Positions 18,555-46,325 of a DNA stretch of 64,000 bases are shown piece by piece (the first letter of the stretch is position 1; every line of letters starts with the position of its first letter). The DNA is from Streptococcus rubneri (GTDB taxonomy: Bacteria > Bacillota > Bacilli > Lactobacillales > Streptococcaceae), in assembly GCF_004785935.1 (NCBI RefSeq), contig NZ_SRRP01000003.1:1-64000 (forward strand), in the 5' to 3' direction. A model generated the notes under the pieces. The model did not search any database and was not told where the DNA came from. It worked only from the letters and a program-made list of their open reading frames with translations. A program made the position numbers and the translations under genes.

Positions 18555-19568
18555 TTAATTTGGATAGATATAGCTGACCGTTCCCCAGACAACATTCGTG
18601 GGGTCAAACCAGCCACGGAAATTGTTGATGGTCCGATTTCCGTTGTAGTTGGCTTCCTGGATTTGAATCTTTTGCTCGTGTTCGACGTCTGTAACAAGGC
18701 CGACGTGGCCATAGCTACCGTCGTCCCAGCAGACAATGGCTCCTACCTCTGGGGTGTTTCCTGTCCGGAAGCCAGCAGCGCGTGCACTAGCTGCCCACAT
18801 GCCACCGTTTCCCCACCAGTTTTGTGCCCAGGGGGCTAGCTCTTTGGTCCCCCAAGTACACTCGCCTACAGGATAAAAATTATCAGGATGAGTGATGAGA
18901 GGTCGTGGTTTCTCCTCTTGGACCTGAAAACTTGTCGGTAAGAGGCCTTTGACTTGTCCCTTATTCTTTTGGTAGACATGAAGATGAAAGAGACCTTTGC
19001 CCTTATGGTTTTGGGCATGAAAGCGAAGTTGGTATTGACCGGGAGCGATCTTTTTAGCAGGATACCAAACTAAGTCGTCTTGACCATCTTGATCAGACCA
19101 GATTGGGAAAAGCACTTCCTCGACATCTTCAAAGAGCTTGAGTTTGACATCAAATTCGTGTGAGGAAACTTGCTGAATGGAGATAGTGGGTTGAGAAGCT
19201 GCGAGGTCCTTCTTCTCGACAGTGGTCGTCAATGGGAAAAGTCCCACCAATTCTCCATGCGCGCCTTGTCCATAAACATGAACATGATAAAGACCTGCTT
19301 GGTCTTGGTGATTGGTCAAGGGAACCTGAAGGTCAAATCCGCGCTCTCCTCTCTGGACGGGATACCAGATTAGATCATCCTGTCCCTTTTGATCGGACCA
19401 GATTGGAAGTCTGATTGACTGGAACTGATCAGGTACGGTTCCGATATGGATATTCAATCTTCCTTTTTCTGCATAGATATAATTAAGTTGGTCATCAGCA
19501 GTGACAGCTTGAGAAGATCCTGCCCATAGGGCGCAAATAGCAATGAGTAGTTTTTTTATCGTTCGCAT
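18555..19568 (-). CDS. lytF: LytF-like competence-induced CHAP murein hydrolase
   Basis: A 337-aa secreted protein. A signal peptide (about residues 1-24, MRTIKKLLIAICALWAGSSQ) is followed by two GBS Bsp-like repeats (about 28-115 and 128-215, each with the PIWSDQ-GQDDL-WYP pattern) and a C-terminal CHAP domain (231-337). That domain has Cys in GECTWG (about Cys237) and His in YGHVGLVT. This is the architecture of LytF, the competence fratricin of S. gordonii and S. sanguinis that replaces CbpD. A perfect SigX cin-box TACGAATA lies 37 bases before the start. The gene runs against purH and is flanked by pur genes on both sides. The CHAP part closely resembles PcsB of this window. Confidence 0.87.
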   Translation of the reverse strand: MRTIKKLLIAICALWAGSSQAVTADDQLNYIYAEKGRLNIHIGTVPDQFQSIRLPIWSDQKGQDDLIWYPVQRGERGFDLQVPLTNHQDQAGLYHVHVYGQGAHGELVGLFPLTTTVEKKDLAASQPTISIQQVSSHEFDVKLKLFEDVEEVLFPIWSDQDGQDDLVWYPAKKIAPGQYQLRFHAQNHKGKGLFHLHVYQKNKGQVKGLLPTSFQVQEEKPRPLITHPDNFYPVGECTWGTKELAPWAQNWWGNGGMWAASARAAGFRTGNTPEVGAIVCWDDGSYGHVGLVTDVEHEQKIQIQEANYNGNRTINNFRGWFDPTNVVWGTVSYIYPN

Positions 19569-19605: not shown

Positions 19606-19613
19606 TATTCGTA
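19606..19613 (-). promoter_or_regulatory. SigX (ComX) cin-box of the lytF-like gene
   Basis: On the minus strand TACGAATA, preceded by a run of Ts, matches the cin-box exactly. It ends 37 bases before the start codon. A one-mismatch copy (TACGAAAA) faces the other way at 19638-19645, giving the inverted repeat TTCGTAAA/TTTACGAA. Confidence 0.9.
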
Positions 19614-43297: not shown

Positions 43298-43336
43298 ATG
43301 ATTAGAAATATAACATAAATAGAAAGGTGTGATCTT

Positions 43337-43723
43337 ATGAAAGTGTTCCATTATCATCGTGAGTTCTGGTTGGACTTCCATTTCTGGCTCTTGGTCTTAC
43401 TTTTAGTGGCTGTAGCTATGATGACACAGAATCCGCTTTCGGTTGTTAGCCTTGCTTATCTTGCTTTTGTAGGGATTTTGATTCTTCTTCAGGTCTTTCA
43501 ACCGCAGGTGTCCAATCGCCAGCATCCAGTAGGTAGCTACCATTTCAATTGGAACTTTTATCGTGACACCAGACTGTATATTGATCTCTTTTTATTGGCT
43601 GGTCTCTTAGAAGGTCCGTTTACTTCAACGGATATAGTTTATTGGATCTTGCTTGGGGCATTCGTCGGCTCTATCGGATTTGTGTTTGTCGTAAATGAAA
43701 AACCGGTTCAAAAAATGGCCTAG
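43337..43723 (+). CDS. Small membrane protein of unknown function
   Basis: A 128-aa protein with three to four predicted spans: about residues 15-30, 36-54, 83-90 and 98-118. It is rich in aromatic residues near the N-terminus (MKVFHYHREFWLDFHFWLL). AAAGGTG precedes the ATG. I do not recognise the family. It is convergent with the bacteriocin-like cluster and shares its terminator, so a link to that cluster (for example immunity) is possible but unproven. It has its own ordinary promoter and no cin-box. Confidence 0.75.
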   Translation: MKVFHYHREFWLDFHFWLLVLLLVAVAMMTQNPLSVVSLAYLAFVGILILLQVFQPQVSNRQHPVGSYHFNWNFYRDTRLYIDLFLLAGLLEGPFTSTDIVYWILLGAFVGSIGFVFVVNEKPVQKMA

Positions 43724-43814
43724 TGCATTGAAAGTTCTAGAAGACATTTATTGGGGATCACTTTCCTCGATGATGAAGAGGGAGAATAGAAAAAGGTCTT
43801 GCTTCGTTCACACG

Positions 43815-43850
43815 AAAAAATCCTAGCTTTCTTAAAAGCTGGGATTTTTT
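43815..43850. terminator. Bidirectional terminator ending the bacteriocin-like cluster
   Basis: AAAAAATCCTAGCTTT (43815-43830), ctta, AAAGCTGGGATTTTTT (43835-43850). A 16-bp stem with one G-T pair and A/T runs on both sides serves both strands. Confidence 0.92.
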
Positions 43851-43902
43851 GAACTGTTTAAGAGATGTGCAAGGAAGAACCCTCAAGGCCTTTAGTCCTT
43901 GC

Positions 43903-44067
43903 TTAGTGGGCCCCACGTTTACGGGCATATTCATCAAAGGCTCCGGCAAAGGTCCCCATGATGAGAGGGGTGGCGATTAGTCCAACAGCCAGCCAGACGG
44001 ATCCTCCATCCACTTGACTGAGTTCCTGCTCGGATAAGCTTTTAAAACGTGTTTCTTCGAGTTTCAT
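43903..44067 (-). CDS. Double-glycine bacteriocin-like peptide 5
   Basis: 54 aa. The leader MKLEETRFKSLSEQELSQVD ends in GG (residues 21-22) and has the usual L-S-x-x-E-L pattern of ComC/bacteriocin leaders. The core of 32 residues starts SVWLAVGLIATPLIM, has a GTFAG (GxxxG) helix-packing motif as in two-peptide bacteriocins, and ends in a charged EYARKRGAH. AAAGGAG lies six bases before the ATG. It is the last gene of the cin-box operon. Export is expected through the competence ABC exporter ComAB or a BlpAB-type exporter, neither of which is in the window. Confidence 0.85.
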   Translation of the reverse strand: MKLEETRFKSLSEQELSQVDGGSVWLAVGLIATPLIMGTFAGAFDEYARKRGAH

Positions 44068-44079
44068 GCTTGCTCCTTT

Positions 44080-44247
44080 CTAGTGCATGATGCCGTTGAC
44101 GATGCTACGACCGAAATCACGCCCCGAATTGTATAAAATGTTCCAGGTCTGTACGATAAACTTGGCCGAATCAAAGACGGATCCTCCTCCGTCAATGGTG
44201 GCTAGTTCTGCCTCAGTCAGGCAGGTGTAATGGAAACTTGTATCCAT
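44080..44247 (-). CDS. Double-glycine bacteriocin-like peptide 4
   Basis: 55 aa with leader MDTSFHYTCLTEAELATID and GG at 20-21; a third Gly follows. The core of 34 residues has aromatic and polar faces (VQTWNILYN) and two GxxxG-like motifs (GRDFG, then SIVNG). It lies 12 bases after the preceding stop with a strong AAGGAGG site. The Cys in the leader is unusual. It is probably paired with peptide 5, which starts 12 bases later. Confidence 0.85.
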   Translation of the reverse strand: MDTSFHYTCLTEAELATIDGGGSVFDSAKFIVQTWNILYNSGRDFGRSIVNGIMH

Positions 44248-44258
44248 CGGTGTCCTCC

Positions 44259-44429
44259 TTAATGTAAAATCGTGTAGAGTAAGTCGATAGCCTCATTCAA
44301 AATAGTGAAAGCAACCATAAAGGCAATGGCAAATTTAGGAAAGTAGCCTTCTACCTGTTTGGGGTCTTTCTTATCTAGAATGCAGTATCCTGTCAAAAGG
44401 ATGAGGGTGATAAAGGGCAGAGAAATCAT
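44259..44429 (-). CDS. 56-aa hydrophobic protein, putative bacteriocin immunity
   Basis: It starts MISLPFITLILLTGYCILDK, with a GGAGG site. There are two membrane spans (about 3-18 and 34-52) joined by a charged loop DKKDPKQVEGY. No double-glycine leader is present. Small two-span proteins between bacteriocin genes are typically immunity proteins; that role is inferred from place and shape only. Confidence 0.75.
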   Translation of the reverse strand: MISLPFITLILLTGYCILDKKDPKQVEGYFPKFAIAFMVAFTILNEAIDLLYTILH

Positions 44430-44443
44430 AGAAATGCCTCCTT

Positions 44444-44596
44444 TTAGAAGAATTTCTTTTTGATATCTTTGCCAATTGTATAGGATAGAGCGACGAGGGC
44501 AACGCAGACTCCTGCTGAAACTACTGCTCCGCCACTAACATCGACCAGTTCATCTTCCGTCAAGGTTACAAAGTTTTGTGTGAATTCTGTTGTCAT
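44444..44596 (-). CDS. Double-glycine bacteriocin-like peptide 3
   Basis: 50 aa. The leader ends LTEDELVDVSGG (residues 12-23). The core starts AVVSAGVCVALVALSYTIG and ends with a basic DIKKKFF tail. AAAAGGAAAA precedes the ATG. Its start directly abuts the stop of the upstream putative immunity gene, and the next putative immunity gene follows after 14 bases. Confidence 0.85.
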   Translation of the reverse strand: MTTEFTQNFVTLTEDELVDVSGGAVVSAGVCVALVALSYTIGKDIKKKFF

Positions 44597-44767
44597 TTAG
44601 TTTTCCTTTTTATTTTTTACTTGGTTTAGGGTAGCATCGACTGCCAAATAGATTGTAGCTGCAATGGCTAAATTAATATTGGGTTGAAATGCAATCAGAT
44701 GTGCATCGTGTAACATGGTTAATCCGATAATGAAGGCGAAAATAATGGTGTGTAAATGTCGTTTCAT
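44597..44767 (-). CDS. 56-aa hydrophobic protein, putative bacteriocin immunity
   Basis: The start MKRHLHTIIFAFIIGLTMLH is chosen over an upstream in-frame ATG inside the preceding peptide gene because AAGG lies five bases before it and spacing is operonic. There are two predicted spans (about 7-20 and 30-44), then a basic tail (NQVKNKKEN). It sits between peptides 2 and 3 and may protect against one of them. Confidence 0.75.
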   Translation of the reverse strand: MKRHLHTIIFAFIIGLTMLHDAHLIAFQPNINLAIAATIYLAVDATLNQVKNKKEN

Positions 44768-44772
44768 AAGCC

Positions 44773-44919
44773 TTATCCTAAAATGAAGCCGAGAGCAAGT
44801 CCTCCGAGGATGCATCCTCCGTAGACGATAAAAGGTGCTACCCCACCGTTGACATGAGTTAACTCTTCATCTGTCAGAGTAGTGAATTGATTGTCAATCA
44901 GTTGATTTGTTTGTGTCAT
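44773..44919 (-). CDS. Double-glycine bacteriocin-like peptide 2
   Basis: 48 aa. The leader ends LTDEELTHVNGG (residues 15-26). The core of 22 residues is very hydrophobic and Gly-rich, VAPFIVYGGCILGG and then LALGFILG, with overlapping GxxxG motifs typical of two-peptide (class IIb) bacteriocins. GGAGAT is the ribosome site. No cationic residue is present in the core, unlike most bacteriocins. Confidence 0.85.
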   Translation of the reverse strand: MTQTNQLIDNQFTTLTDEELTHVNGGVAPFIVYGGCILGGLALGFILG

Positions 44920-44952
44920 AAGCTATCTCCTTTTCTAATGTATTGTCTGTTA

Positions 44953-45081
44953 TTACTTTCTTTGGCAACTACTTAAAGTCAAAAGTCCAAGAGGAATCAA
45001 GATGAAAGGGAGGAAACCTCCCGTGCATTCTTCTAGTTCAGCGTCGTTTAGTTTTGAAAACTTTTTATCAATTGTTGTCAT
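44953..45081 (-). CDS. Double-glycine bacteriocin-like peptide 1
   Basis: 42 aa. The leader of 22 residues ends LNDAELEECTGG. The short core starts FLPFILIPLGLLTL and ends SSCQRK. AAAGGAAA precedes the ATG. The core is short for a bacteriocin and could instead be a signalling or accessory peptide. It is the first leader-bearing gene of the operon. Confidence 0.82.
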   Translation of the reverse strand: MTTIDKKFSKLNDAELEECTGGFLPFILIPLGLLTLSSCQRK

Positions 45082-45096
45082 GATATTTCCTTTCTG

Positions 45097-45222
45097 TTAG
45101 AGCACATTGGCTAGCGTTTTTCCTAGTTCGTAGCCTACTTGATAGATGCCATACATCAAAACGGGTGCTAGAATGCTAGCGAGTATGATGAGTGCCTTTT
45201 TCTTTTTATTCCATTTTTTCAT
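45097..45222 (-). CDS. 41-aa cationic membrane peptide of the bacteriocin-like operon
   Basis: It starts MKKWNKKKKALIILASILAP and continues VLMYGIYQVGYELG. A strongly basic N-terminus is followed by one span with a GYELG (GxxxG) motif. There is no double-glycine leader. A strong GGAGG site lies four to five bases before the ATG. It could be an immunity protein, a leaderless bacteriocin or a small membrane helper. I do not recognise the family. Confidence 0.72.
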   Translation of the reverse strand: MKKWNKKKKALIILASILAPVLMYGIYQVGYELGKTLANVL

Positions 45223-45231
45223 ACAGCCTCC

Positions 45232-45291
45232 TTATAACATGATTAACGAGAGGAAAAGTAATAGAATAAAAGCTTGTGTATTCTTTTTCAT
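45232..45291 (-). CDS. 19-aa hydrophobic peptide MKKNTQAFILLLFLSLIML
   Basis: AAAGGGA precedes the ATG by eight bases. The peptide is a basic start followed by a single hydrophobic run, like a bare signal sequence or a tiny membrane peptide. It is the second ORF after the cin-box and ends nine bases before the next gene. Translation is inferred only from the ribosome site and spacing. Confidence 0.55.
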   Translation of the reverse strand: MKKNTQAFILLLFLSLIML

Positions 45292-45313
45292 ATTAGGTAT
45301 TCCCTTTCCTTAT

Positions 45314-45370
45314 TTATTTTCGGAAGAAGTAATACAAAAACCATGGGATGATAATGGGAGTATAGTACAT
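45314..45370 (-). CDS. 18-aa hydrophobic peptide MYYTPIIIPWFLYYFFRK
   Basis: A very strong AGGAGG site lies seven bases before the ATG, which is 37 bases from the cin-box, the same spacing as for the lytF-like gene. The peptide is aromatic, membrane-seeking and ends in RK. It resembles small membrane-active or type I toxin-like peptides in size and composition, but no antisense RNA is evident. Confidence 0.62.
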   Translation of the reverse strand: MYYTPIIIPWFLYYFFRK

Positions 45371-45407
45371 CTGTGGTCCTCCTTTCTTTTTGATTGGTCA
45401 CTTATAT

Positions 45408-45415
45408 TATTCGTA
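45408..45415 (-). promoter_or_regulatory. SigX (ComX) cin-box of the bacteriocin-like operon
   Basis: TACGAATA on the minus strand, preceded by a T/C-rich run (TTTC). An exact match to the competence sigma-factor box, oriented towards the ten small ORFs at 45370-43903. Only two exact copies were noticed in the window; the other drives the lytF-like gene. Confidence 0.9.
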
Positions 45416-45548
45416 GAAAGTCTGAAAAATTTTTAAAATAATTGATTTTTTTCAAAAATGAGTGGAGTGTCTTTCCTCTGAAACTAGTTTCAGAGGAAAG
45501 AGAGGATAGTTTAAAACATGAAACTATTATCATTTTAGTCAGTTAATA

Positions 45549-45577
45549 TTGTAAGCGCTTCAAAAATACTATATAAT
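45549..45577 (+). promoter_or_regulatory. nan operon promoter with overlapping cre site
   Basis: TTGTAA (45549-45554), a 17-base spacer and TATAAT (45572-45577). TTGTAAGCGCTTCAA (45549-45563) is a cre covering the -35, so CcpA repression by glucose is expected. Confidence 0.85.
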
Positions 45578-45626
45578 AACTTTACAAGTACTCGAGTTGT
45601 CGTAATAAACAAAGGAGATGGAATGT

Positions 45627-46325
45627 ATGTCCAAGATCACGAAAGAAGAATTGATTCAACAGATCAAAGACGGCATTATCGTTTCTTGTCAGGCGCTTCC
45701 TCATGAACCTCTCTATACAGAGGCAGGAGGTGTGATCCCTCTCTTGGTCAAAGCGGCTGAGCAGGGAGGAGCGATTGGAATCCGGGCTAATAGCGTCCGC
45801 GATATCAAAGAAATCAAGGAAGTGACAAAACTTCCAATTATCGGGATTATCAAGAGAGATTATCCTCCTGAAGAACCATTCATAACTGCTACCATGAAAG
45901 AAGTAGATGAGTTGGCAGCACTAGATATCGCAGTTATTGCACTGGATTGTACCAAACGTCCGCGTCACGATGGGCTCTCGATTGTCGACTTTATTTATCA
46001 GGTGAAAGAAAAGTATCCTGACCAGCTGCTCATGGCCGATATTAGTACCTTTGAAGAAGGGGTGACTGCTGCGGAAGCTGGAGTTGACTTTGTCGGAACG
46101 ACCTTATCAGGCTACACAGATTACAGCCCGAAAGTAGACGGACCAGATATCGAGTTAATTCGCCAACTCTGTCAAGCAGGAGTCGATGTCATCGCTGAGG
46201 GCAAGATTCACTATCCAGCACAGGTCAAAGAAATTCACGACCTAGGCGTGAGAGGAATTGTTGTCGGAGGTGCCATCACACGGCCAAAGGAAATCACAGA
46301 ACGATTTGTCGCAGCTTTACATTAA
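45627..46325 (+). CDS. nanE: N-acetylmannosamine-6-phosphate 2-epimerase
   Basis: A 232-aa TIM-barrel enzyme that turns ManNAc-6-phosphate into GlcNAc-6-phosphate in sialic acid breakdown. The start [20 protein letters not shown] is set by AAAGGAG; an in-frame ATG nine bases upstream overlaps that site. Family marks are [21 protein letters not shown] and the C-terminal [15 protein letters not shown]. It is the first gene of the nan locus behind the cre-controlled promoter. Confidence 0.95.

Follow-up and report, generated by a model that had tools for sequence, protein, structure and literature searches.

The window analysed here covers 64,000 nucleotides (nt) of the oral bacterium Streptococcus rubneri (contig NZ_SRRP01000003.1, positions 1 to 64,000). 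Its minus strand carries ten small open reading frames (ORFs), ORF1 to ORF10, running from a SigX (cin, ComX) box at 45408-45415 down to 43903. This cluster is, with high probability, a multi-peptide class II bacteriocin operon under SigX control, of the general cib/cab kind, that occupies its own site flanked by nanE and the gene of a small (128 amino acids, aa) membrane-type protein. In the proposed mechanism, competence would raise SigX via competence-stimulating peptide (CSP) and ComDE, and SigX would transcribe all ten ORFs from the single box. ComAB would then cut five double-glycine (GG) leaders and export the cores. The producer would be protected by two 56-aa proteins, ORF6 for ORF5/ORF7 and ORF8 for ORF9/ORF10. 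ORF1 would be a member of a family of leaderless, hydrophobic, SigX-coupled micropeptides of 16-18 aa. ORF1 and this family behind SigX-like boxes look new. The predicted outcome is expression, export and pairing of the peptides, immunity of the producer, killing and DNA release. The reading rests on features of the DNA itself: the box, the ORFs, their coding constraint, a modular structure, an empty site in relatives, the presence of ComAB and ComCDE and the micro-ORF family.

The box (TACGAATA) was confirmed by direct reading, as reported in a first-pass annotation of the window, and is the sole exact one within the cluster. The ten ORFs share one direction and comprise five GG peptides, two 56-aa membrane-type proteins and three ORFs without a GG leader. 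Their close packing and the five leaders with the pattern L-(S/T/N)-x-x-E-L, both described in that annotation, were also found on reading. Each of these leaders (ORF4, ORF5, ORF7, ORF9 and ORF10) contains (M/L/V)XXXXGG as well. The GxxxG motifs claimed for several cores are those of ORF5, ORF9 and ORF10, and ORF3 has one too. A ribosome site had been assigned to every ORF; it is good for eight but weaker for ORF2 (AAGG) and ORF6 (AGGA). The closing intrinsic terminator at 43815-43850 (minus strand) is indeed strong: the fold of the 101-nt stretch 43805-43905 has an energy of -30.1 kcal/mol (z -3.58), a value equalled by none of 200 shuffles. A simple terminator scan did not list 43815-43850. 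As already noted, the cluster itself holds no exporter or regulator gene, and competence is plausible as its only switch.

The GG peptides, all on the minus strand like the other ORFs, are ORF4 (44953-45081; leader LNDAELEECTGG, core FLPFILIPLGLLTLSSCQRK), ORF5 (44773-44919; core VAPFIVYGGCILGGLALGFILG), ORF7 (44444-44596; core AVVSAGVCVALVALSYTIGKDIKKKFF), ORF9 (44080-44247; core with GRDFG) and ORF10 (43903-44067; core with GTFAG). The profile search against bacteriocin families that had been suggested as a check succeeded for three of the five. ORF5 (33.6 bits), ORF7 (25.0 bits) and ORF10 (22.9 bits) passed the cut-off of 21.5 for the class IIb lactobin A/cerein 7B family TIGR03949, and ORF5 also passed that of PF10439 (31.1 bits, cut-off 27.1). 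ORF4 stayed below the TIGR03949 cut-off (17.3 bits), and ORF9 passed no family cut-off and was unlisted for TIGR03949. Class IIb bacteriocins are defined by an activity that depends on two peptides. S. australis ATCC 700641 is among the strains with a TIGR03949-family hit in the text of PMC7494827. ORF6 (44597-44767) and ORF8 (44259-44429) are putative immunity proteins of the membrane type. Their 56-aa length was as annotated, and the two membrane spans attributed to each are a prediction made by eye from the sequence.

The remaining three ORFs have no GG leader. ORF1 (45314-45370) encodes the 18-aa micropeptide MYYTPIIIPWFLYYFFRK behind an AAGGAGG ribosome site; 45 nt separate its ATG from the start of the box. 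ORF2 (45232-45291) encodes a hydrophobic micropeptide of 19 aa. ORF3 (45097-45222; 41 aa) combines a lysine-rich N-terminus with a C-terminal stretch resembling a bacteriocin core: its YGIYQVGYELGKT is identical at 9 of 13 positions to WGIYQVGEAAGKT from GG cores of other loci (1 of 1000 shuffles equal). ORF3-like non-GG proteins with a C-terminal GxxxG were found at four loci (L139, L140, L142 and L236). That ORF3 acts as a decoy-type immunity protein is no more than an idea.

In a genus search of 284 Streptococcus genomes, 24 had any match to the cluster; eight of these had large matches and the other 16 short stretches. The eight carriers form the S. australis/xiaochunlingii clade, with S. 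australis (three), S. xiaochunlingii and Streptococcus sp. bf_0095, names that were taken from five loci only. The box was identical in all eight carriers and its promoter distance was kept, as in a SigX regulon and in agreement with the SigX-type promoter annotated before. All ORFs were open in every carrier possessing them. The ratio of non-synonymous to synonymous differences (pN/pS) across carriers lay at 0.00-0.32 in every ORF but ORF3; the values of ORF3, ORF4, ORF5 and ORF7 come from three genomes only. For instance, it was 0.30 for ORF2 and 0.03 for ORF9 over the eight carriers. ORF3, present in three of the eight, reached 0.94 on about 21 changes.

Three genomes (G000, G302 and G024) had the same layout as the window. 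The other five (G063, G304, G064, G115 and G253) lacked ORF3, ORF4, ORF5 and ORF7 and had a relative of ORF6 (66-71% identical), followed by two different GG peptides; ORF1, ORF2, ORF8, ORF9 and ORF10 were retained. Because these five carriers swap the ORF3-7 module yet keep the other ORFs, the operon has a stable half, ORF9/ORF10 with ORF8, and an exchangeable half, ORF3-7, which exists in two versions (three and five carriers).

The whole segment 43724-45475 appears as an insertion, since the same site is empty in 16 sister genomes. There (L189-L204), only about 20-65 nt separate the homologues of 43723 and 45476-45519, compared with ~1.75 kb in the window. The comparison covered the best 30 nanE loci; six further ones (L205-L210) failed to align across the site. 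Carriage of the cluster by plasmids or phages found no support, with 0 matches in a plasmid collection or a phage collection. Likewise, none of 21 pattern matches for ORF8 relatives in viral contigs was confirmed.

The first-pass annotation had placed the exporter elsewhere in the genome, either ComAB or a Blp-type one. The ComAB part stood: a ComA-type peptidase exporter lies at C1:1649562-1651679 (1098 bits), within comAB at C1:1648-1652 kb, and adjoins a 453-aa ComB-type ORF named by reading. A Blp-type exporter found no support. ComA was the only match above the TIGR01193 cut-off in this genome, and the next one lay below it, inside an apparent lanthipeptide locus. This locus (C1:700000-714000, L113) has ORFs of 996 and 702 aa and a 62-aa GG precursor; the names were given by reading. 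The regulatory genes are grouped together as comC (44 aa with GG leader; NF033214 score 22.4, below the cut-off of 50), a ComD-type kinase and a ComE-type regulator. Exact boxes were also found shortly upstream of dprA, comEA, cinA, recX, a helicase reading as comFA and a weak type IV prepilin peptidase match.

The ComA peptidase domain (E<=1e-30) was present in 181 of the 284 genomes, including all eight carriers and none of the 16 empty-site sisters. A ComE-type match existed in all 24; it was 89-100% identical in seven carriers, 54-56% in 15 sisters and lower in the sister G188. The sister clade resembles S. parasanguinis, a name to be taken as probable. S. parasanguinis is reported, in the text of PMC13101493 and PMC9638458, to be without ComB, ComC and a close ComA, and not to be transformable. 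The contrast between carriers and sisters agrees with these reports and supports ComAB as the exporter.

Several observations weigh against a SigX-driven, ComAB-exported operon. The exact 8-mer was not enriched genome-wide, with 24+32 sites compared with 39+48 for the reversed control (56 vs 87). The exact 8-mer alone therefore means little, and the cluster is counted as real because of its conservation: large matches in eight genomes, a box identical in all eight and low pN/pS in nine of its ORFs. The sigX gene was not found with PF04542, which gave one sigma factor over the cut-off and one weak match. In carrier G115, the comE-type gene is broken in two pieces with a stop (C1:1514667-1515412), so that one of the eight carriers may not respond. 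The ComA contrast sets a single clade against one other and thus reflects a single evolutionary event. Moreover, no core relative was found for ORF4 or the second alternative GG core, and no relative for ORF2.

The broken comE and the unlocated sigX would also suit an operon that has decayed or fallen silent in this clade. We regard this as very unlikely: the ORFs remain open wherever they occur, the box is unchanged and pN/pS is mostly <0.33. Even less credit is given to a Blp-like or other peptide system as the switch in place of SigX. A second LytTR regulator and kinase pair does exist at C1:1318039 (L148, C1:1315000-1323500), beside ABC-transporter-type genes. However, no bacteriocin gene was seen next to it (8.5-kb stretch, 90-aa listing limit), and sigma-70-like sites in 43300-45650 were at chance level (7 vs 6.3 expected; no search for BlpR/ComE sites was made).

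The first-pass annotation had treated ORF1 as just one of the ten ORFs. The ORF proved real, but its apparent relatives behind SigX-like boxes had been overlooked. They were sought in 43 stretches upstream of comA: 40 (L211-L250) were hand-chosen among the ComA matches listed, mostly from complete genomes, and three (L137-L139) are biased to ORF6/ORF8 loci because they were drawn from ORF6/ORF8 matches. The stretches are 'S. mitis-like', a label based on locus position, and motifs of plsX or acpP occur in 29 of the 43 and in 26 of the 34 with micro-ORFs, i.e. at the published position of the competence-associated bacteriocin (cab) loci. ORFs of 14-20 aa with ATG and ribosome site were confined to the sense strand (88 vs 0). 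Family micro-ORFs of 16-18 aa accounted for 81 of the 88, in 34 of the 43 stretches, with motifs such as MYVTGFYPWFIKWFLK, MYLPILLPWFIKWYLK, MISVIYPIWFLKWFKA and MFISMFYPWFTELFFK. The motif was defined after inspecting the sequences; of the seven short ORFs left out, two are member-like and five are not. Within L211-L250 alone, 32 stretches had micro-ORFs and 35 had GG peptides, and none of the five GG-less ones had a micro-ORF.

A SigX-like box, NNCGAATA, preceded the ATG by 34-43 nt in 77 of the 81 copies. The variants were TTCGAATA (41), TGCGAATA (17), CTCGAATA (10), TACGAATA (7) and ATCGAATA (2). The text of PMC6001120 takes TTCGAATA as a SigX box in S. mitis; the other variants beside family micro-ORFs can be called SigX-like only. 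The micro-ORF was amplified 2-4 fold in 29 of the 34 loci, and copies were added together with their promoters. The spacing between copies (n=47) was 121-126 bp in 45 cases, 113 in one and 243 in one. In all 34 loci, a GG peptide ORF started <=260 nt past the last micro-ORF copy.

The family is very probably translated and under selection, because the differences between alleles skew to the third codon position. Within the MYVT type (16 alleles), they were distributed 43/54/409 over the three codon positions, with pS 0.365 and pN 0.033 in frame, as against pS/pN of 0.042/0.099 and 0.030/0.113 in the other frames. The corresponding differences were 86/199/441 for the MYLP type, 36/39/89 for the MISV type and 762/664/1718 between MYVT and MYLP.

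For ORF1, kinship to this family is supported by one test and opposed by another, and we treat it as putative homology. ORF1 shares with the family its place, the strong ribosome site, the length class, P-W-F and a basic end, and its distance of 45 nt from the box compares with 34-43 nt. In global alignment, its best score of 55 was reached by 0 of 3000 shuffles and its mean score by 1 of 3000. A member in genomes G193 and G275, MISYMFPLVWLRTLFKNY, was weaker (30 and 45 of 3000 shuffles) and had no box within 60 nt. ORF2 was rejected as a member since its alignment was no better than shuffles. The ORF1 protein was identical in all eight carriers. Its DNA was unusually fixed as well, with 1 of 16 degenerate codons varying among carriers vs 54 of 90 in ORF9 and ORF10 (p 5.8e-5); on these counts, the fixation exceeds what protein constraint needs.

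Four findings speak against a general micropeptide family that includes ORF1. A profile hidden Markov model of 30 distinct family peptides failed to recover ORF1 (score -3.9, equalled by 1147 of 2000 shuffles). With only one of 16 degenerate codons varying, selection on ORF1 is undemonstrable within the window clade. Of 80 boxes preceded by T, 22 had no family micro-ORF behind them. Finally, L215, L242, L249 and L139 have GG peptides without a family micro-ORF.

We tentatively propose, with slightly less confidence than doubt, that in competence bacteriocin loci of the Mitis group many repeated SigX boxes are more than bare promoters: each would belong to a cassette of ~124 bp with promoter, ribosome site and a selected micropeptide gene, copied in tandem. 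The micropeptide would be an undescribed part that competence predation systems have in common, working at the producer membrane (in export, surface display or self-protection) whatever bacteriocins follow it, and ORF1 would represent it as a single copy in the S. australis clade. As to function, our guess, at modest odds, is a general helper of export, surface retention or immunity at the producer membrane. A helper is favoured over a leader ORF or a killing peptide because one motif recurs in front of differing bacteriocins.

Alternatively, the micro-ORFs could be leader ORFs only, in which a strong ribosome site serves to load or protect the message or to stall ribosomes, the released peptide being inert. 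We consider this possible but doubtful. The constant position close to the promoter and the strong ribosome site would fit, and a stalling nascent chain would likewise conserve amino acids, Pro and Trp being frequent in the motif. However, a single leader would make several divergent copies per locus superfluous, and these retain their own peptides. Fold z-scores gave no sign of a structured RNA leader or attenuator (mean 0.10 over 80 units; -0.50 to 1.09 over the eight carriers; 0.96 in the window). It is unlikely that the micropeptides are leaderless membrane-active killing or lysis peptides in competent cells. They are hydrophobic and aromatic, with a net charge of +2 in 28 of 30 distinct family peptides and in ORF1, and the 2-4-fold amplification would also suit such a role; yet two alleles have charge 0, shuffled versions of the C-terminal part are just as amphipathic and neither an export signal nor a leader was seen.

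No description of the micropeptide was found in the literature searched, which included the text, though not the figures and supplements, of PMC13059744, PMC11921387, PMC9426450 and PMC6001120. In their text, the cab papers describe such repeats as SigX boxes only. The ORF search given in the text of PMC13059744 starts at 100 nt, and a 16-aa ORF could therefore not be listed.

Competence-induced killing feeds gene transfer among streptococci. According to the text of PMC13059744, Cab peptides act by contact from the producer surface and their delivery is unexplained. If the proposal is true, a conserved micropeptide under the same promoter is a testable candidate for this missing part, and the cassettes would change the reading of tandem SigX boxes. 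The S. australis cluster offers a simple natural contrast, with ComA and operon in the carriers and neither in the sisters.

Three side observations concern the surroundings. A perfect 30-bp palindrome around GAAACTAGTTTC lies upstream of the box at 45471-45500, with its inner core kept in the eight carriers; it may act as an operator for the divergent nan genes, and 45550-45562 holds a cre-like site. Elsewhere in the window, a secreted-type protein with two GBS_Bsp-like repeats and CHAP (18555-19568, minus strand) has an exact SigX box at 19606-19613. It reads as a competence-induced murein hydrolase, which we take to be of the fratricin type.

Among known systems, the S. gordonii sth genes are a competence-induced bacteriocin. 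The cibABC genes of S. pneumoniae, as described in the text of PMC13059744, are similar in being SigX-driven, with a two-peptide bacteriocin and an immunity protein, whereas the operon holds five GG peptides and two immunity-type proteins. Closer to the cibABC layout is a second bacteriocin-type locus of the same genome at C2:132616-133228 (L114, C2:125000-141000), which has one SigX box, a 62-aa GG peptide, a 77-aa protein and a 52-aa GG peptide. Both its cores have relatives in the comA-adjacent locus of G216.

Relatives of the operon's own genes also lie next to comA. The ORF6 profile matched 10 of the 284 genomes; those besides the eight carriers are G193 and G275 (E about 5e-12). In both, a GG peptide, the ORF6 relative and another GG peptide stand before comA, with four exact boxes upstream in the fetched stretch, and the flanking cores resemble ORF5 (59% over 22 aa) and ORF7 (73% over 11 aa; 0 of 400 shuffles each). 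The ORF8 profile matched 12 genomes, the extra ones being G216, adjoining comA, and G256 and, weakly, G111 and G112, elsewhere. The ORF9 core has a relative in locus L236 (0 of 400 shuffles equal), where a weak relative of the ORF10 core was found too (20 of 400).

The cab loci of S. mitis are the nearest comparison. The text of PMC13059744 describes them as SigX-dependent in late competence, with 1-11 genes per locus, contact-dependent killing and DNA gain; they lie downstream of plsX-acpP and upstream of comAB, with >=2 SigX boxes in every collected locus. Like them, the operon combines immunity-type genes and a SigX box with several ORFs of 100-300 nt that encode GG peptides carrying (M/L/V)XXXXGG (ORF4, 5, 7, 9 and 10). 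Moreover, comA-adjacent loci hold relatives of ORF5, 6, 7, 8 and 9, as well as ORF1-type micro-ORFs. It differs from this published description in lying beside nanE and not between plsX-acpP and comAB, in having one exact SigX box and not two or more (box variants were not scanned in the window), and in carrying a single micro-ORF copy where comA-adjacent loci have 1-4. The novelty of a larger multi-peptide version, as claimed in the first-pass annotation, was therefore overstated: multi-gene SigX-dependent loci have been reported for S. mitis (text of PMC13059744), and the operon is ordinary in kind, a single-box variant of published competence-bacteriocin loci that is new in place and arrangement.

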